From NCBI GenBank assembly GCA_021732995.1, contig JAKFWA010000119.1, positions 1-64,000 on the forward strand: a stretch of 64,000 nucleotides of DNA, written 5' to 3'. This DNA is from Planctomycetaceae bacterium (GTDB taxonomy: Bacteria > Planctomycetota > Planctomycetia > Planctomycetales > Planctomycetaceae). Both the position numbers and the translations under genes were made by a program. The notes under the pieces were generated by a model. The model was not told the origin of the DNA. It saw only the letters and a program-made list of their open reading frames with translations, and ran no database searches. Shown here piece after piece: positions 23,295-31,722 of the stretch (positions are counted from its first letter, which is position 1; each line of letters starts with the position of its first letter).

Positions 23295-26200
23295 CTACGA
23301 CTCCAGCCGCTGCCGGATTTCCTGATAGACGTCTTCGCAGTGCGTGCGCAGATCGGCGACGAGTTCCGCAATGGCGCTCAATTGGTCCGACTTCACGCAT
23401 TCCTCGACTCGTGCGGCGTGTTCCATCGGGATTTCGGCACAGATGGCTCGCATGTTTCCGAGAATCGTGTGAGCGGCTCGGCGAGCGGTCGCGGAATCCT
23501 TCTGCGCGAGTGCTCCATCCAGAGCCTGCATCAACACCGGACACTCCTGCAGCACGGCGTTCAGTACTTCATGCAGCAAGGCGATGTCGCCGCCAACGAC
23601 GTCGCTAGCGCGGTCCCAGTTGATGAATTTGGTGTTGGCTGCGGCGCGCGCGGCAGAGGTCGCTGGTGACTCTGCGGGCTGGTCGCTGCAGTTGATTCGT
23701 CCGTTGGCATCTTGAGAACTGCAGAAAGCCGCCAGCTTCTCGAACAGCAGCGGAGCACGAATGGGCTTCGTGACGTAGGCGTCCATACCAGCGTCTAGGC
23801 AACGTTCTTCGTCACCCTTTAGAGCGTGAGCAGTCAGGGCGATGATCGGCGTGCGGCGTGTTGAACCAGCCTCCAGTCGCCGGATCTGGCGGGTGGCTTC
23901 GAGACCGTCGAGGTCGGGCATCTGGACGTCCATCAGAATGACGTCGAAGGCGCGTTGCCCCCAGGTATCGACCGCCTGACGCCCGTTGTTCGCAATGGTG
24001 ACCTGATGGCCCCACTTTTCGAGCAGGGCGACGGCGAGCTTCTGGTTGACTCGACTGTCTTCGGCCAGCAGCACGTTCAGGCTGCGGGAATGCTGCGGCC
24101 GCCGTTCCGTTGGGGCGTGGTCCTCCTCAACGCGCTGTACTGCCAGCACATCCACGAGTGAGTCGAACAGTTCAGACTGCTTGACGGGCTTCGTCAGGTA
24201 CGCGGCTACTCGTAAGCCTCGGCGGCGGGCAATCTCCGTTGCATCCTGCCGGGAGGTCATCAGTATCACGGGGCTCGCGGCGTCACCGCTTGCCTGCAGG
24301 CGTTCTACCAACTCGAAGCCGTCGATCTCCGGCATATCGAGATCGCTGAGGATCAGGTCGAACGGACGGCCCAGTTCGCGTGCGGCTTCGAAGGATTGAA
24401 AGGCCGACATACCACCTTCCACGATGACCGGCACGATCGACCAGCTACGCAGCATCTCATCCATGATGAGTCGATTGGTCGCGTTGTCGTCGACGACCAG
24501 AATGCGCTTTCCGGTCAGGCAATCCGTTGAACGGTGGACTAACTGCGACGCGTCCTGCGGAATGCCGAAGACTGCGGTGAAGTGAAACGTGCTGCCGCGG
24601 CCGACAGTACTTTCCACCCAAGTCTTGCCGCCCATCAGTTCAACGAGACGCGTTGAGATCGCCAACCCGAGGCCGGTGCCCTCGAAACGGCGGGTCAATG
24701 ATGTATCGACCTGCTCGAATGCCTCGAAGATCTTGCTGAGCTTGTCCTCGGGAATGCCGATGCCGGTGTCACGTACGGCGAAGTGCAGCACGATCTGAGA
24801 ATCATCCGGCTGAAAGAGGGTGGGAGTTGTGTTGGTCCATCGTGAGACGTCCACCAGAACTTCGCCGACTTCCGTAAACTTGACCGCATTGCCGACGAGG
24901 TTCACGACAACCTGCCGCAGGCGGCCTGCGTCGCCGACCAGCAATTCTGGTACGTCGGGAGCAACGTGGCAGGCGAGTTCCAGCTTGCCGCGATGGGCCC
25001 GCACAGCCAGCGACTTCAGAGTGTCGCCGAGGCTTTCGCGTAACTGCAGCGGCTGCGGATCGAGTTCCAGTTTGCCAGCCTCGATCTTCGAGAAGTCCAG
25101 AATATCGTTGATGATTCCCAGCAGAGATTCGCCGGACTCTTTGACCAGTGTCAGATATTCACGCTGAGTTTCCGCGAGATTTGAGTCCAGGACTAACTCG
25201 GTCATTCCGATGATGGCATTCATCGGTGTGCGGATTTCATGGCTCATGTTGGCCAGAAAGTTGCTTTTTGCGGTGCTGGCAGCTTGAGCGGCGTCGCGGG
25301 CTTCCTGCATCGCCTGCTGAGCGTGCTTGTGGTCTGTAATGTTGTGAGACATCCCGAAACTGCCGGTGATAATTCCGTGTTCGTCGCGAATCGGCATGCG
25401 GGTAATTAGAAGCCAGCGTTCTTCACCGTCGGACCAGCGCACGAATTCTTCTTCGCCGATGATCGATTCTCCGGTCGAAGTGACGTGATGATCCAGTCTG
25501 CGAACGCGCTCGGCGTACTCAGCAGGAAAGTAGTCGTCGGCAAGACGACCAACCGCTTCGGATGGATCGGACAGCCCCAACCGCTCAGCCATCGCGCGAT
25601 TGATGCGGAGATAACGCCCTTCAACGTCCTTGAAAAAGATATTGTCCGGGATGTTGTCCATCAGCGACCGCAGCAGGAAGCGTTCGCGTTCCAGAGCCTC
25701 TTCGGTGCGTCTGCGAGGCGTCACGTCCCAGAAAATACCTTGCGTACCAACGAGGGCTCCGTTGGCGTCGTAGACGGGCGTCTTGAGCACGTGCGCGTAG
25801 CGTTTCTCCCCGTCCGGGGTCATATGCGACTCCGTCGCTTCGAACACCGTGCCGGTCCCCATAACTTCTGCGTCGTCGGCGGTGTATTTGTCAGCGAGTT
25901 CCTTCGGGAACAGGTCGTAATCGGTCTTGCCGAGGATGTTCTCGAACGTCGTGCTACGTGATTGCAGATAGCGCAGGTTGGCGTAGGTTACTCGCCCCTG
26001 CAGGTCTTTGCGGTACAGGTTCATCGGCAGGTTGTCGACGAGCGATTCATACAAGGCTTCCGAGTCACGCAGTTTCTGTTCGACCTCACGCCGCCGTTGC
26101 AGCTCGTCTTCGTGAAGTCGATTGGCTCGCGCCAAATCCTCGATTGTCGTGAGCAGAACATTCAGGAGCTCCTCGCGCGACGTCTGAACTTCGCCATACA

Positions 26201-26627
26201 GCGTCGACGGAGCAGGAGTTGCCTCCGAGTCGGGATCTGATGTTGTTGAGCCGTCGCGCGAATGACTGCGCGCCAGGCACTGATTGACGCGAGTCAGGAC
26301 GATGTCCAGCGGCATTTCTTCGGACAGGTACCCGTTTGCTCCGGCCGCCAGCACAGACATCACATTCGGCGGGGAAATCTGCATCGCGTTGAGCAGCACT
26401 GGAATCTGCTGGTGGCCCTGGTTGCGCAGCTCCCGGCAGAACGCGACGCCGGTGATCTGGGGAAGGTCCCAGTCTGCGACGATCAATTGCACCGGGAGCT
26501 GAGCTGCGGCGGCGAGGCCTTCTGTTGCAGAGGTGGCTCGCACCACCTCGTTGCCAGCGGCTCGCAGGGCGTCGGCGATGGCTTCGGTGCGAGTGGTCGG
26601 GTATCCGACGATCAGAATATGCGTCAT
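23295..26627 (-). CDS. Hybrid sensor histidine kinase (REC-PAS-PAS-HisKA-HATPase-REC-REC-HPt)
   Basis: 1110 residues, no membrane segment, so a cytosolic phosphorelay hub. Order: REC1 (1-120, Asp52 in VADWDLP), a short coil, PAS1 (190-310), PAS2 (315-440), HisKA with His463 in MSHEIRTPMNAIIGM, HATPase_c (565-690; N box NLVGNAVKFT, G1 DTGIGIP, G2 GTGLGLAI), REC2 (707-830, Asp762), REC3 (850-970, Asp900 in ILMDVQMPDLDG) and a C-terminal HPt (about 1015-1105, His1053). The HPt motif reads AHTILGNMRAI rather than the usual HxLKG, so its competence is worth testing. The REC1 domain implies an upstream kinase feeds in. No cognate DNA-binding regulator is adjacent. Divergent from the Hsp70 gene. Confidence 0.93.
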   Translation of the reverse strand: MTHILIVGYPTTRTEAIADALRAAGNEVVRATSATEGLAAAAQLPVQLIVADWDLPQITGVAFCRELRNQGHQQIPVLLNAMQISPPNVMSVLAAGANGYLSEEMPLDIVLTRVNQCLARSHSRDGSTTSDPDSEATPAPSTLYGEVQTSREELLNVLLTTIEDLARANRLHEDELQRRREVEQKLRDSEALYESLVDNLPMNLYRKDLQGRVTYANLRYLQSRSTTFENILGKTDYDLFPKELADKYTADDAEVMGTGTVFEATESHMTPDGEKRYAHVLKTPVYDANGALVGTQGIFWDVTPRRRTEEALERERFLLRSLMDNIPDNIFFKDVEGRYLRINRAMAERLGLSDPSEAVGRLADDYFPAEYAERVRRLDHHVTSTGESIIGEEEFVRWSDGEERWLLITRMPIRDEHGIITGSFGMSHNITDHKHAQQAMQEARDAAQAASTAKSNFLANMSHEIRTPMNAIIGMTELVLDSNLAETQREYLTLVKESGESLLGIINDILDFSKIEAGKLELDPQPLQLRESLGDTLKSLAVRAHRGKLELACHVAPDVPELLVGDAGRLRQVVVNLVGNAVKFTEVGEVLVDVSRWTNTTPTLFQPDDSQIVLHFAVRDTGIGIPEDKLSKIFEAFEQVDTSLTRRFEGTGLGLAISTRLVELMGGKTWVESTVGRGSTFHFTAVFGIPQDASQLVHRSTDCLTGKRILVVDDNATNRLIMDEMLRSWSIVPVIVEGGMSAFQSFEAARELGRPFDLILSDLDMPEIDGFELVERLQASGDAASPVILMTSRQDATEIARRRGLRVAAYLTKPVKQSELFDSLVDVLAVQRVEEDHAPTERRPQHSRSLNVLLAEDSRVNQKLAVALLEKWGHQVTIANNGRQAVDTWGQRAFDVILMDVQMPDLDGLEATRQIRRLEAGSTRRTPIIALTAHALKGDEERCLDAGMDAYVTKPIRAPLLFEKLAAFCSSQDANGRINCSDQPAESPATSAARAAANTKFINWDRASDVVGGDIALLHEVLNAVLQECPVLMQALDGALAQKDSATARRAAHTILGNMRAICAEIPMEHAARVEECVKSDQLSAIAELVADLRTHCEDVYQEIRQRLES

Positions 26628-26981: not shown

Positions 26982-28562
26982 ATGAAGCTTCTTGCAGGCC
27001 AGACCGTCGGCATTGACTTGGGAACTACCTACTCATCAATCGCCCAAATTGGCGAGGACGGGTCGCCTCTGTGTATTGAGAATGCCGAGAAGAAGGTGAT
27101 TACGCCCTCGGTCGTGCTGCTTGCCGAAGACGGAAAAGTGATCGTCGGCCCAACTCCCGAACGAATCTCGGTTGAAAAGCCCGAGAACGTCGTCGAAGCC
27201 ATCAAACGCGAGATGGGCAATGCCGACTTCTACATTGTCTATCAGAACAAGAAGCTGACTCCGGAATTCATCTCGGCCCTGATTCTGAAGAAGCTGAAGC
27301 AGGACGCAGAGAAGCACATTGGCTCGATTACGAATGCCGTCATCACGGTGCCGTACTACTTCAACGACGTCCGCCGCAAGGCGAGTCAGGACGCCGGACG
27401 CATCGCTGGTTTGAACGTCATCGACATCATCAACGAACCGACGGCCGCCACGCTTGCTTACGCTTGGGAAAAGGGTGAACTCGGTCGCCCGGACATCTTC
27501 AAAGGCAACAAGACGATTCTGGTTTACGACCTCGGTGGTGGTACGTTCGACGTGACCGTCGTGCGTTACACGGCGACCGACTTCCGCGTGCTGGCCACCG
27601 ACGGTGACGTGATGCTGGGCGGTCTCGACTGGACGCGCCGCATTGTCGAGCACATCTCCGAGCAGTTCGCCAAGAAGCACGGCTCGAACCCGATGGAAGA
27701 TCCCGAGAGCCTGCAGGTGCTGTCGCAGGAGTGCGAAAAGGCCAAGCGTGAATTGAGCTCCCGCGCTCAGACGCCGGTGAATGTCTATCACAATGGTAAA
27801 TCGTTGACGTTGTCGCTCACTCGCGGCGATTTTGAACGCATGACCGCCGACTTGATGCAACGTACGCGAGACACGACGGAACTGGTGCTTCAGCAGGCCG
27901 GCATTCAGCCGAGTGACCTGGACGAAGTGGTGCTCGTCGGTGGTTCGACGTACATGCCCGTGGTCAAGCAGATGCTCAAGGAAGTCTGTCAGCGCGAACC
28001 CAACGGCAGCGTGGTGCCCCCGGAAGAAGCCGTGGCTCGCGGTGCGTGTATTCACGCCGCCATTCTGGAAGCACGACTCACTGGCGGCGAATCGCGACTC
28101 GCCAAGGCCGCAATCAATCGTCTCCGCTCGGTTTCGACGACAGACGTGAACTCGCACGCACTGGGTGTGAAGATCAGCGATCCGCAGGATCGTTCTCGCA
28201 AAATCAATCACATCATGATTCCGAAGAACACCGCCCTGCCCTTTTCGATCACGCAGCGGTTCGTGACGACTTCGGACAACCAGCAGCGAATTCACGTTTC
28301 CATTCTGCAGGGCGACGCGGTCGACCCGCTGGCTTGCGAGCAGATCGGCGACTTCCGCATCACTGGCCTGCCCGCGAATCTGCCCAAGAACAGCCCGGTC
28401 GAAGTGACCTATAGCTACGATTCCAGTGGTCGAATTCACGTGACCGCGCGGGAATTGACTGGTAACCGTGAGGCTTCTACCGAGATCGTTCGCGAGAAGA
28501 TGCAGACGGAAGAGAGCATCGACGTCATGACCGGCCTCGCAGCGGGTTATCACGTTGAATAG
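26982..28562 (+). CDS. Hsp70 family protein (DnaK paralogue without a full lid)
   Basis: 526 residues. The nucleotide-binding domain is complete: TVGIDLGTTYSSIAQIG, VITVPYYFNDVRRKASQDAG, INEPTAATLAYAW, ILVYDLGGGTFDVTVV, and EVVLVGGSTYMPVV. A substrate-binding beta domain follows (VNSHALGVKI, PKNTALPFSITQRFVTT, GRIHVTARELTGN). The protein ends about 100 residues earlier than DnaK, so the helical lid and the EEVD-type tail are largely lost. ATG at 26982 is preceded by AAGGGA. The next gene encodes a J-like membrane protein and the third a cNMP-domain kinase, so this is a specialised rather than housekeeping chaperone. No grpE or dnaJ is adjacent. Confidence 0.9.
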   Translation: MKLLAGQTVGIDLGTTYSSIAQIGEDGSPLCIENAEKKVITPSVVLLAEDGKVIVGPTPERISVEKPENVVEAIKREMGNADFYIVYQNKKLTPEFISALILKKLKQDAEKHIGSITNAVITVPYYFNDVRRKASQDAGRIAGLNVIDIINEPTAATLAYAWEKGELGRPDIFKGNKTILVYDLGGGTFDVTVVRYTATDFRVLATDGDVMLGGLDWTRRIVEHISEQFAKKHGSNPMEDPESLQVLSQECEKAKRELSSRAQTPVNVYHNGKSLTLSLTRGDFERMTADLMQRTRDTTELVLQQAGIQPSDLDEVVLVGGSTYMPVVKQMLKEVCQREPNGSVVPPEEAVARGACIHAAILEARLTGGESRLAKAAINRLRSVSTTDVNSHALGVKISDPQDRSRKINHIMIPKNTALPFSITQRFVTTSDNQQRIHVSILQGDAVDPLACEQIGDFRITGLPANLPKNSPVEVTYSYDSSGRIHVTARELTGNREASTEIVREKMQTEESIDVMTGLAAGYHVE

Positions 28563-28600
28563 ACAGTTGTTACTCTTGCCTGCAGGACATTGACGTTGAC

Positions 28601-28637
28601 GAAGCCCGGTTTCAGATTGGACCGGGCTTCTCTGCAT
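28601..28637 (+). terminator. Hairpin between the Hsp70 and J-like genes (terminator or attenuator)
   Basis: A perfect 10-bp stem GAAGCCCGGT/ACCGGGCTTC (28601-28610, 28621-28630) with a 10-nt loop is followed by only a weak TCTGCAT tail. It may lower rather than stop readthrough into the next gene. Confidence 0.6.
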
Positions 28638-28666
28638 AGGGCCTCGAAATCAGAAGGAGCCGTCCA

Positions 28667-29749
28667 GTGGAATTGGACGTCTATAAAGAGTGGCTTGGTA
28701 TCCCGGACGGGCCGCGACCGCCGGATCATTACACGCTCCTGCGCCTGGTTCAGTTTGAGGACAACGCCGAGAAGGTCCGTAACAACTACAAGAAGCTCAA
28801 CGGGCACGTCCGCAAGTACGCGTCTGGGCAGTACTCGGTGAAATCGCAGGCGTTGTTGAATGAGATCGCCAAAGCGATGCTCTGCCTGACCGATCCCGAG
28901 CGCAAACGCGAGTATGATGAAACGATGGGCCGTGAGTTCCCCGAGGATGCGGGAGCGACCGTGCCGATGGAACGCATCCTCGCGAAGCAGGGACACATCA
29001 CTCGCGATCAGATCAAGGAAGCAGAAGAGTTCGCTGATCGTCGCGGCCTGTCGATGCGCGACGCCGTCGTGCAGATGAAAATGGTGACGCAGGAGATTGC
29101 CACTCAAGCGCTGGCTGAAGAGCTGAAGCTGCCGTATGTAGACCTCGGTGACATGACTCCGGATGAGGAAGTCCTCGACCAGACGCCGAAAGTGCTGTGT
29201 TCGCGGAATTCGTTGCTGCCACTGTTCATCGACGACAACCGCCTGATGGTGGCCTGCGCGGATGAGCCGACTCATCAGTGCGAAGACGAATTGCGGTTGC
29301 GGTTCGGCGTGCCGATGCGGCGCGTGATGGCAACTCCGACTGCTGTAAACGCTGCCATTGCGAAGTTCTACGCGCCCGGACTGCGAGACGACGCTGGATC
29401 GAAACCGGCTGCCGCGAAGGCGACCAAGCCGCCGAAAGCCGAATCCAAGAAGGGGACAACCGAAAAGGAAGCTCCCGCAGAGGCTGCGAAACCTGCACCA
29501 GCTCCGGTGAAGAGCGTGCGGTTCAAAGATCTGCCACCCGATCAGCAGGCTCAGCGCAAGCAGATCGGCATGATTTTGATGATGTGGGCCTTCATCGGCG
29601 GCATGGTGATCGATTCGTTCTGGCTGTCGCCGCTGCTCATCAAACTGAAGTGGTCGCTGCTGGTGCCAATCGGCTTCCTGCCGTCGCTGCCGGCGATCAC
29701 TGTGATCGGTTTGGTGGTGATGTTTGTGCTGCTGATTTATTGGAAATAG
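28667..29749 (+). CDS. Membrane protein with J-like and GspE-N/MshEN-like domains
   Basis: 360 residues from a GTG at 28667 (AGAAGGAG upstream). Residues 15-85 are a planctomycete J-like domain: PPDHYTLLRLVQF, then AMLCLTDPERKREYDE. The HPD tripeptide needed to stimulate Hsp70 ATPase is replaced by a sequence around VRKYASGQ. Residues 105-235 resemble the N-domain of type II secretion or type IV pilus ATPases (ILAKQGHITRDQIKEAEEF, LAEELKLPYVDL, NRLMVACADPT-like), in which related MshEN domains can bind c-di-GMP. An Ala/Lys/Pro linker follows, then two transmembrane helices (IGMILMMWAFIGGMVIDSFW; SLPAITVIGLVVMFVLLIYW). No ATPase domain is present. It could tether the neighbouring Hsp70 to the membrane. 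Confidence 0.75.
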   Translation: MELDVYKEWLGIPDGPRPPDHYTLLRLVQFEDNAEKVRNNYKKLNGHVRKYASGQYSVKSQALLNEIAKAMLCLTDPERKREYDETMGREFPEDAGATVPMERILAKQGHITRDQIKEAEEFADRRGLSMRDAVVQMKMVTQEIATQALAEELKLPYVDLGDMTPDEEVLDQTPKVLCSRNSLLPLFIDDNRLMVACADEPTHQCEDELRLRFGVPMRRVMATPTAVNAAIAKFYAPGLRDDAGSKPAAAKATKPPKAESKKGTTEKEAPAEAAKPAPAPVKSVRFKDLPPDQQAQRKQIGMILMMWAFIGGMVIDSFWLSPLLIKLKWSLLVPIGFLPSLPAITVIGLVVMFVLLIYWK

Positions 29750-29907
29750 TGGAGGAATTCGCTGTAAGTCATTGGCGCCGGCGTCTTTTGATATGCACAC
29801 TCGTTGATCCTTTCCGTTCTGACGACGTGAACGGGGGAGTGTTCAGGAAGTGTTGACCGGCTGGCGCGCTTCAGGGCGCTGGCGACTACTCACCGGAACA
29901 TGTTGTT

Positions 29908-31722
29908 ATGAGCGGGCCACCAAACGAACTTTCGACCAGCAATGATCGAACTCCGCCGACGAATCTGTTCGCGGATCGTGAGCGTCCGTTGATGAAGTCG
30001 CCGGGCGTGCTGAGATTCATCGACTCGCAGAGTAACCGGACACCTCACGCGCCGATGGCCGCTTTGGAGTACGTCCGGCGGCAGGCTCAGATCTCGGTTG
30101 AGGATTGCGTGGGTATCTTCCTGCACGATCAGCAGGAACGCTGGGTGCGTGGTCTTGGCTTGCCGGCCGAGGTCTATTTGCGGGTGCTGTCCGAACGCGT
30201 CGCTGTGGTTCCTGAGAGCTGGTCCTGGGAGATTGTGGCGAATGAGTTCGCGTTGCGTCAGACCTGCGGGAACCTCGCTCCACCTCCGGAAGTAGAAGAG
30301 TTCGCTGCCCGGTTCCCTGGATTGCGGGATAAGTTGGAAACGGAATTTCCGGAAAGGATTTCGCTGTCGGATATGGACTCGACCAAGGATTTTGGCAAAC
30401 AGGGAGCGGCCGATCCCGTCATGGACACTTACATAACGCCGCATTCGGATCACGAAGTTACGACGATTGAGCTGGATGACGACAGCTCCATGCACATTCT
30501 GGATGGCGGCTACAAACAAGCTCAGCACTCGTTGCTGGGCCATACTCACCCGTTCTCCCTGTTGCCGCCGTCGCTGGTCAGCAAGATCGAAACCAGACTG
30601 GAATCGGTCTGCTTCCAGCCTGACGAGTATCTGATGCGGCAAGGCGATCCGGGGACAGGATTGTTCATCATCGAGAGCGGTGAAGCGGAGATTCATTCGG
30701 CCGATGACAACGGCCAGTCGCACCTGCTGGGGGTGAGCACGGCGAAAGAGATTCTCGGTGAGATGTCGCTGCTGACAGACGAGCCCCGTACCGCCGACGT
30801 GAAGGCTCGCGGTGTCGTGCAGACGAAGTTTCTGCCGGCGCGGGTGTTCGAAGAGATCGCGTCGAGTTATCCCGTCGTCAGTCGCGTCCTGACTCAACTG
30901 CTGGCTGATCGTCTCGGGCAGCGGGGACGTGATGCGCTTACTGGGAAGACGTTGAATGAATACCGCATCCTGAAGCGGCTCGGCCGAGGCGGCATGGCTA
31001 TCGTCTATCAGGCGGAAGATGTCCGCTCGGGACAGATCGTCGCGTTGAAGATGATGAGCCACCGACTGGTTTACGATGCGCAGGCACTGCGGCTGTTCCA
31101 ACGCGAGGCGCGGCTGATTGAGTCGTTTGACCATCCGAACATCGTGCGGATGCTAGGGCGTTTTCAGGCGTTCCGGTCATTTTTTATCGTCATGGAGTTC
31201 TGCTGCGGAACGAGTCTGGACGAGGTCCTGCGCTCGAAGGGGCCGCTCTCAGATGCCGAGTTCCGATCTGCGTTCGCTCAACTGGTGGATGGTCTGACTT
31301 ATGCGCACTCGCGACAGGTGGTGCATCGGGACATCAAGCCTTCGAATGTGATGCGGCTTTCGGACGGCACGATTCGGCTGATGGATTTTGGTCTGGCGAA
31401 TCCGATCGAGGACATGCCCGCGGGGCGTCAGGCCATTGCTGGAACGCCTGCCTACATGGCGCCGGAGCAGCTTCGCGGGCAGGTTGTGGATGAACGGGCA
31501 GATTTGTTCAGCCTGGGCTGCACTGCCTACCGCCTTTTGACTGGTAAACCGGCATTTCCGCAGACGACACTGGCTCGGATCCGCGCTGCACACGCACGCT
31601 GGGAGCCGCCGGAGTTGGCCGACGTTGCTCCTGATATCCGCGACTTCGTTCGTGGCTGTCTGCAACGCAATCCAGATGAGCGGCATATTGACCAGGATAT
31701 GATCGCTAGCTGGCACAGTTGA
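29908..31722 (+). CDS. Ser/Thr protein kinase with cyclic-nucleotide-binding-type domain
   Basis: 604 residues. The N-terminal 200 residues are unassigned. A cNMP/CRP-type beta barrel lies at about 216-335 (FQPDEYLMRQGDPGTGLFII, GEMSLLTDEPRTADVKA). A Hanks-type kinase fills 352-598: glycine loop LGRGGMAIVYQ, Lys381 in VALKMM, HRD loop VVHRDIKPSN with Asp475, DFG at 493, and GTPAYMAPEQL. The GEMSLLTDEPRTA phosphate-binding cassette looks intact, so it may bind a cyclic nucleotide; many such domains do not. Kinase at the C-terminus with no membrane helix is unlike most bacterial PknB-type receptors. It lies 160 bp downstream of the J-like gene on the same strand, and 28 bp before the helicase gene. 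Confidence 0.92.
   Translation: MSGPPNELSTSNDRTPPTNLFADRERPLMKSPGVLRFIDSQSNRTPHAPMAALEYVRRQAQISVEDCVGIFLHDQQERWVRGLGLPAEVYLRVLSERVAVVPESWSWEIVANEFALRQTCGNLAPPPEVEEFAARFPGLRDKLETEFPERISLSDMDSTKDFGKQGAADPVMDTYITPHSDHEVTTIELDDDSSMHILDGGYKQAQHSLLGHTHPFSLLPPSLVSKIETRLESVCFQPDEYLMRQGDPGTGLFIIESGEAEIHSADDNGQSHLLGVSTAKEILGEMSLLTDEPRTADVKARGVVQTKFLPARVFEEIASSYPVVSRVLTQLLADRLGQRGRDALTGKTLNEYRILKRLGRGGMAIVYQAEDVRSGQIVALKMMSHRLVYDAQALRLFQREARLIESFDHPNIVRMLGRFQAFRSFFIVMEFCCGTSLDEVLRSKGPLSDAEFRSAFAQLVDGLTYAHSRQVVHRDIKPSNVMRLSDGTIRLMDFGLANPIEDMPAGRQAIAGTPAYMAPEQLRGQVVDERADLFSLGCTAYRLLTGKPAFPQTTLARIRAAHARWEPPELADVAPDIRDFVRGCLQRNPDERHIDQDMIASWHS

Follow-up and report, generated by a model that had tools for sequence, protein, structure and literature searches.

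A lidless Hsp70 with aspartate in place of the J-docking arginine, encoded beside an HPD-less J-like membrane protein in a planctomycete family

The locus considered here lies in a stretch of 64,000 nucleotides (nt) from the genome of a Planctomycetaceae bacterium (assembly GCA_021732995.1, contig JAKFWA010000119.1; G000:C21:1-64000, the whole of which we call the window; genome size 9.39 Mb). Its strongest feature, missed by the preliminary description, is the loss of the J-docking site in an Hsp70 that, judged by its residues, keeps what is needed for ATP binding and hydrolysis and has lost the J-receiving residues, the hydrophobic linker and the lid. The gene that follows encodes a membrane protein, here called jmsh, with a predicted J fold without the His-Pro-Asp (HPD) motif, an MshEN domain without the motif for cyclic di-GMP (c-di-GMP) and a predicted pair of C-terminal helices. 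We infer, with a confidence that stays somewhat short of even, that the two form a dedicated pair in which a J-uncoupled Hsp70 would be anchored to the membrane through a J-like tether without HPD.

The preliminary description had placed three consecutive plus-strand genes here, and the reading frames as well as all the domains it named were recovered by open reading frame (ORF) and Pfam analysis:

26982..28562, plus strand: lidless Hsp70, 526 amino acids (aa), by ORF, Pfam and alignment; marked by R167D, Q378H, E217R and a deletion of 212-215 (E. coli DnaK numbering), the linker VSTTDVNSH and the C-terminus YHVE
28601..28630, plus strand: GC-rich stem-loop in the Hsp70-jmsh spacer, without a T run, by sequence and fold
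28667..29749, plus strand: jmsh, the J-like/MshEN/two-helix membrane protein, 360 aa, GTG start
28667..28933, plus strand: J-like domain of jmsh, residues 1-89, with R49-K50-Y51 in the place of HPD, by alignment and models
28967..29371, plus strand: MshEN (GspE-N type) domain of jmsh, residues 101-235, without the c-di-GMP motif, by Pfam and structure match
29537..29740, plus strand: two predicted C-terminal helices of jmsh, residues 291-326 and 341-358, by model secondary structure
29908..31722, plus strand: Ser/Thr kinase with a cyclic-nucleotide barrel, 604 aa, a lineage-specific neighbour outside the conserved pair

The Hsp70 start at 26982 has AGGGA a few bases 5' of it, and the GTG start of jmsh (28667) is common to many of its relatives. 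Upstream of the Hsp70, on the opposite strand, a hybrid histidine kinase frame (23295-26627) runs divergently.

The Hsp70 matches its Pfam family (PF00012) at E 7.8e-123, and the ATPase residues K70, E171, D194, T199 and D201 are kept in 32/32 sequences, D8 and T11 in 31/31 of those with a residue there. It misses the DnaK equivalog cut-offs (TIGR02350, 401.3 bits vs 822.55; NF001413, 417.8 vs 648). The lid, most of which the preliminary description had given as lost, is gone: 18 residues follow E. coli position 507, compared to 131 in E. coli DnaK, and the 16 orthologues of the tree described below have 18-19. The wider alignment of the pair drew on 100 Hsp70s, 81 of them distinct, and on 117 membrane proteins, 96 of them distinct; one of the 81 Hsp70s, a 108-residue fragment, was scored as a gap. 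Orthologue length is 523-528 in all but three shortened ones of the 81. The J-docking residues are replaced throughout, R167 by D and Q378 by H in 80/80 readable orthologues; E206 has become R or K in 74/80 and E217 in 78/80, the loop 212-215 is deleted in 81/81, P396 is S and L397 is H in 80/80, and linker positions 390-392 carry mostly polar or small residues in place of the hydrophobic ones of DnaK, leaving a protein without the J-responsive signature (R167, Q378, linker VLLLD). P419 is kept in 81/81 and D393 in 78/80, and D481 is N, S or A in 76/81. All 81 end in Y-x-[VI]-[DE], a motif that no other paralogue listed has.

Contact between HPD and R167 is regarded as the key trigger of the Hsp70 ATPase. 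As described in PMC8215388, D35 of HPD contacts both R167 and Q378; H33 reaches the L391 backbone, P34 reaches P419, and the partner of K48 is D477. According to PMC7289447, R167 bridges the interface of the two domains by pairing with D393 and with D481, and D35 of the J-domain displaces these pairs. The same source reports that E. coli DnaK R167D has a somewhat raised basal ATPase that DnaJ and substrate do not stimulate effectively, and that in simulation this mutant resembles the J-bound state. Since D at position 167 is fixed in 80/80 orthologues, the lidless Hsp70 is built like this mutant.

On the other side of the pair, structure modelling makes the N-terminal part of jmsh a J fold without HPD, so that jmsh is a J-like protein of the kind that the preliminary description had suspected. 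The Pfam DnaJ model reaches E 0.0096 on jmsh, below its cut-off (16.5 vs 27.8 bits). Because the Foldseek and VIA lists for full-length jmsh were filled mainly by its MshEN part, the J part was modelled alone (pLDDT 93.6). Foldseek then gave 26 of 33 best rows titled J-domain, Hsp40 or HscB, at E 0.026 and weaker with none at 0.001, and VIA gave Z 9.8 to the J-domain 6rzy (2.0 Å over 68) and Z 8.3 to the DnaK-bound J-domain 5nro_B (1.8 Å over 62), values that, being below ~13, can reflect a common helical-bundle arrangement, but in rows that J-domains dominate. HPD occurs nowhere in any of the 96 distinct jmsh sequences, the window's included. At its site stands a basic-x-aromatic triplet in 96/96, which is R-K-Y in 88; two jmsh with long N-terminal extensions, read separately at this site, both have R-K-Y. 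Conservation within the J-like domain peaks in the surrounding segment 41-54, with a mean entropy of 0.36 bits compared to 1.81 in 22 other J-like domains, and the gap of 1.45 is the largest among seven segments (next, 0.74), although a single orthologous family is here compared with a mixture of 22 domains, so that every gap is inflated. We rejected the arginine at this site as something special to the pair, as 13 of the 22 other J-like domains share it.

HPD-less J-like domains of this kind (F-D-x-Y-x-K-W-L-G-I-P...Y-D-x-x-L) form a common planctomycete module, with examples in L073, L074 and L135-L153 (e.g. L139:6475-8148 and L142:3549-6137). Among 10 J-like proteins scanned, some also have Ser/Thr kinase, FHA, FGE-sulfatase, 3-keto-disaccharide hydrolase or PD40 domains; over the J-like part of these 10, no Pfam model at E <= 0.01 was among the best stretches shown.

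Modelled together with its relatives, jmsh shows the J-like part, MshEN and, at the C-terminus, two long helices. The helices accord with the two-helix membrane protein initially proposed, and their hydrophobic sequence suggests a membrane hairpin. The middle domain had been described as GspE-N-like and of a type able to bind c-di-GMP. The first half of this holds: Pfam MshEN (PF05157) matches residues 153-239 at E 2.3e-16, and this part of the model superposes on 5htl with Z 17.2 (2.1 Å over 135). The second half does not. The published receptor motif, a tandem of (R/K/L)LGxx(LVI)(LVI)xxG(LVI)(LVI)xxxxLxxxLxxQ as given in PMC5013675 and PMC11731258, was found in 0/96 jmsh in strict form and in 0/96 with a relaxed first half, and the NCBIfam model of the motif scores 20.1 bits against a cut-off of 38. 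We therefore rejected c-di-GMP binding by the published motif, and control of the chaperone system by c-di-GMP, as first envisaged, is not supported because the motif is absent in 96/96. The invariance of G127, D132 and Q136 in all 96 sequences without that motif suggests instead that the domain may hold another ligand or a protein partner.

That these two genes belong together is argued by their arrangement. The Hsp70 lies directly upstream of jmsh on the same strand in 31/36 relatives and in 68 of 80 named contigs. These sets share members (e.g. L183, L187 and L213), and their counts are therefore interdependent. Among the remaining 12 contigs, one leaves no room and 11 have at least 1.2 kb upstream yet no Hsp70. 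In a neighbour control on 95 distinct loci (116 before loci with identical membrane proteins were dropped), the Hsp70 recurred in 79 and the next neighbour family in 16, excluding antisense frames of Hsp70 and jmsh, which clustered as well. No other gene was kept beside the pair in more than 16/95 loci. The adjacency of Hsp70 and jmsh is not general synteny, since the Hsp70 recurs in 79/95 loci and the next family in 16.

The spacer between the two genes is 104 nt in the window and holds the stem-loop listed above, possibly an attenuator or an mRNA-stabilising element; the whole spacer folds with z = -1.4. Across 80 distinct spacers the median length is 113 nt (range 3-497), and fold z is below -2 in 29/78, a count obtained with shuffles that keep base composition only and hence not decisive for a conserved stem-loop. 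Long stem-loops are alike in L038, L184 and L185; those in the window, L037 and L040 differ in sequence. A promoter and terminator scan gave no promoter (1.5 expected) and five terminators (4.4 expected).

A jmsh relative with both the J-like and MshEN parts is present in 36/37 same-family genomes, the window genome included, and in G045 of another family. The sole same-family genome without it, G012, has a matching Hsp70 fragment (residues 1-107) that runs into a contig end, so the gap is probably one of assembly. The five relatives in which jmsh is unlinked all encode an Hsp70 orthologue elsewhere, at 65-69% identity, and both genes are therefore present in 36/36 same-family genomes with jmsh. 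Of 392 genomes from the phylum searched with a jmsh profile, 30 gave a match at E <= 1e-30, namely 28 of the same family, G045 and the distant G412 (that no same-family genome is without a match was read from the sort order, the genomes without a match being listed in part), and a search with the G412 protein returned the same 30 at E <= 1e-18. As 28 of the 30 belong to one family, jmsh is mainly a trait of that family. The G412 homologue (L263:8491-9471) is distant and keeps the J-like part, the MshEN part and a hydrophobic C-terminus. Named contigs contain 214 jmsh relatives, of which the best 80 are all planctomycete-titled except one titled only 'bacterium'. Two contigs titled Candidatus Kuenenia stuttgartiensis (L195 and L206), probably mistitled, encode jmsh at 51-53% with an Hsp70 adjoining.

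The altered Hsp70 is itself part of a larger planctomycete paralogue group with D or E at 167 and Q378 lost, whose members include L079, L080 and L081 of the window genome and L090-L092, L097-L101, L108, L265, L266, L269, L278 and L279; some of these have no lid, and others carry long C-terminal extensions. Among the 73 Hsp70s of a tree (11 of 32 orthologues, 61 other fetched Hsp70s and E. coli DnaK), R167 and Q378 are either kept together (34) or lost together (39). The Hsp70s without R167, which have altered linkers and variable C-termini, group together; the part containing every D/E167 tip has a modest support of 0.69 and includes three tips with another residue. The subclade of the paired orthologues has support 1.0 and contains three in-family paralogues as well (L079, L097 and L110). 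Besides the paired Hsp70 and the three further D167-type Hsp70s (L079, L080 and L081), the window genome encodes a canonical DnaK (L076), a further R167-bearing Hsp70 (L077) and two J proteins that bear HPD. No J-like gene was found in 20 neighbourhoods (L114-L133) of other Hsp70s of the D/E167 group. L077 lies within a few kb of a J-type protein, L314, in which K-P-E replaces HPD (G000:C5, ~62.0-65.8 kb), and, in another three planctomycete genomes, Hsp70 gene pairs within ~3 kb occur at L265/L278 (G402:C48), at L271/L288 (G046:C1) and at L270 with its neighbour (G058:C53).

Let us assume that the Hsp70 behaves as a natural R167D mutant. Its beta substrate-binding domain (SBD-beta) would then be freed from the clamp that R167 forms to the ATPase domain, and hydrolysis would proceed without an HPD trigger. 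The J-like domain of jmsh would act as a tether, its conserved segment K-L-N-x-H-V-R-K-Y perhaps binding either the former J site of the Hsp70 or its Y-x-V-E tail. One conceivable contact with swapped charge is that of R49/K50 of jmsh with D148 of the Hsp70, a weak detail because R49 is common in other J-like domains. Tethering might keep the Hsp70 at the membrane, where the MshEN domain could dock a partner protein. Without a lid and linker coupling, such an Hsp70 would be expected to cycle fast and hold clients loosely; its role would be that of a holdase or assembly factor acting locally, not that of a refolding machine. In a broader form of this proposal, which we offer as a possibility we would not call probable, planctomycetes evolved a J-independent branch of natural, partly lidless R167D/E Hsp70s, one of which came under the control of a J-like membrane protein without HPD by way of a new contact, the HPD-arginine trigger having been dropped on both sides.

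Several observations weigh against a dedicated pair of tether and uncoupled chaperone. The loss of R167 and Q378 is wider than the distribution of jmsh and so did not arise with the pair. J-like domains also occur in many proteins not found near Hsp70s of this type, R at position 49 is shared by 13 of the 22 other J-like domains compared, and G412 has no Hsp70 beside its jmsh homologue and none of the lidless R167D type at E <= 1e-60. One of the five unlinked Hsp70 orthologues ends in YDVR rather than Y-x-V-E, and the long spacers and stem-loops make co-transcription of the pair less certain. The basic residues at E206 and E217 (74 and 78 of 80) would stand opposite a basic helix II, which argues against the canonical pose. 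The plant protein CJD1, another HPD-less J-like protein, did not bind Hsp70 in the yeast two-hybrid assay reported in PMC3196505.

Two of the rival explanations we regard as the main ones. The pair might be rewired and yet still triggering by canonical logic, with the R-K-Y loop replacing HPD and acting on D148 and on the histidine at the Q378 position. We consider this unlikely, even though both sides of the canonical contact have changed, both new sides are fixed and the R-K-Y loop lies where the J-like domain of the jmsh family is most conserved; re-matching of this contact also has a precedent in DnaK R167H, which suppresses DnaJ D35N (PMC5519331; PMC7289447, as described there). Against it stand a linker that is mostly polar or small at 390-392 and an arginine that other J-like domains commonly have, and docking in the canonical manner is made unlikely by an acidic groove of the Hsp70 that is now basic while helix II of the J-like domain is still basic. 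Alternatively, J-like domains might bind one another, as in Tim16-Tim14, with jmsh serving as a scaffold that recruits the J-like kinases, FHA and FGE-sulfatase proteins while the Hsp70, merely co-regulated, binds clients independently. The abundance of the module and its fusion to such domains in some of the 10 proteins scanned, the report that J-like domains pair with J or J-like domains and the failure of CJD1 to bind Hsp70 (both PMC3196505, as described there), and the G412 homologue without an Hsp70 of this type all favour a scaffold. To this we would give the same low probability as to the rewired trigger, because it leaves unexplained why the Hsp70 adjoins jmsh in 68/80 contigs and why the HPD-site segment, variable in other J-like domains, is fixed in jmsh.

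A looser relation, in which the two genes are mere neighbours with shared expression needs and no functional partnership, would fit spacers that are long for an operon, some of them with stem-loops, and the absence of linkage in 5/36 relatives and 11/79 contigs with room. We think it improbable, given that no other neighbour recurs comparably beside the pair and that both genes accompany each other in all 36 same-family genomes with jmsh. Least credible to us is a three-gene chaperone complex under second-messenger control, by c-di-GMP through MshEN and by a cyclic nucleotide through the kinase, as the preliminary description had suggested. The kinase does have the domains ascribed to it, Pkinase (E 9.9e-59) and cNMP_binding (PF00027, E 3.7e-20). 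Cyclic-nucleotide-binding domains have a phosphate-binding cassette of the form GE...RTA. GE and RTA are kept in 7/7 aligned kinases, and the kinase alone may thus bind a cyclic nucleotide. Together with the clear MshEN fold and the adjacency of the kinase in one sublineage, this is what speaks for the complex; against it stand the missing c-di-GMP motif and the gene order, which is conserved for Hsp70 and jmsh and not for the triplet. The kinase adjoins the pair in only 2/36 relatives (2/31 with at least 2.5 kb downstream) and in 6/66 named contigs with at least 2.5 kb downstream, these six including the two, and in the same-genus genome G001 a 50% relative of the kinase lies on the same contig ~15 kb away from the pair; 24 of the 37 genomes in the kinase survey are of the same family. 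We therefore rejected the kinase as a core third member of the unit, and it is most readily understood as a gene that one sublineage acquired or retained next to the pair.

A substitution made in laboratories to break the HPD-R167 contact is here fixed naturally across a bacterial family, next to a J-fold protein without HPD. Nature thus provides a test case for the abilities of an Hsp70 and a J fold in the absence of the trigger, and the pair offers a two-gene target in a cultured relative, as a Thalassoglobus neptunius strain is among the named contigs.

The separate elements of this system have known counterparts: CJD1 and Pam16 are described as J-like membrane proteins without HPD, and HscC exemplifies the specialised Hsp70s that have J proteins of their own. 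Among the matches listed in a search of the open-licence literature, we found no natural Hsp70 clade with an acidic residue at R167, no J-like/MshEN protein paired with an R167-acidic Hsp70 and no description of the three-gene set. With DnaK-DnaJ the pair shares an Hsp70 with its ATPase residues kept and a predicted J fold, whereas HPD, R167, Q378, the hydrophobic linker and the lid are missing, and the window genome has, besides the pair, its own canonical DnaK and HPD-bearing J proteins. DjlB and DjlC are membrane-anchored. Their partner HscC likewise has a specialised role, J proteins of its own and, it is suspected, a task at the membrane; at 550-580 aa with a lid (PMC8215388), it differs from the lidless 526-aa Hsp70 of the window, and no HscC model was among the matches listed in a general curated-model scan, which was not aimed at HscC.

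Plastid CJD1 also combines a J-like domain without HPD with a membrane setting (PMC3196505), as do Tim16/Pam16 and CPP1, HPD-less J-like proteins at membranes that we compare by description only; the descriptions of CJD1, Pam16 and CPP1 mention neither an MshEN domain nor a neighbouring Hsp70 gene, and jmsh has both. The MshEN (GSPII) domains of MshE, PilB and PilF have the fold and profile found in jmsh, which in contrast has no attached ATPase and no c-di-GMP motif. Finally, the truncated plant Hsp70s (Hsp70T) are also described as C-terminally shortened lineages (PMC10687569), though defined there by loss of a C-terminal motif, whereas the Hsp70 of the window has lost its lid and kept a new Y-x-V-E end.

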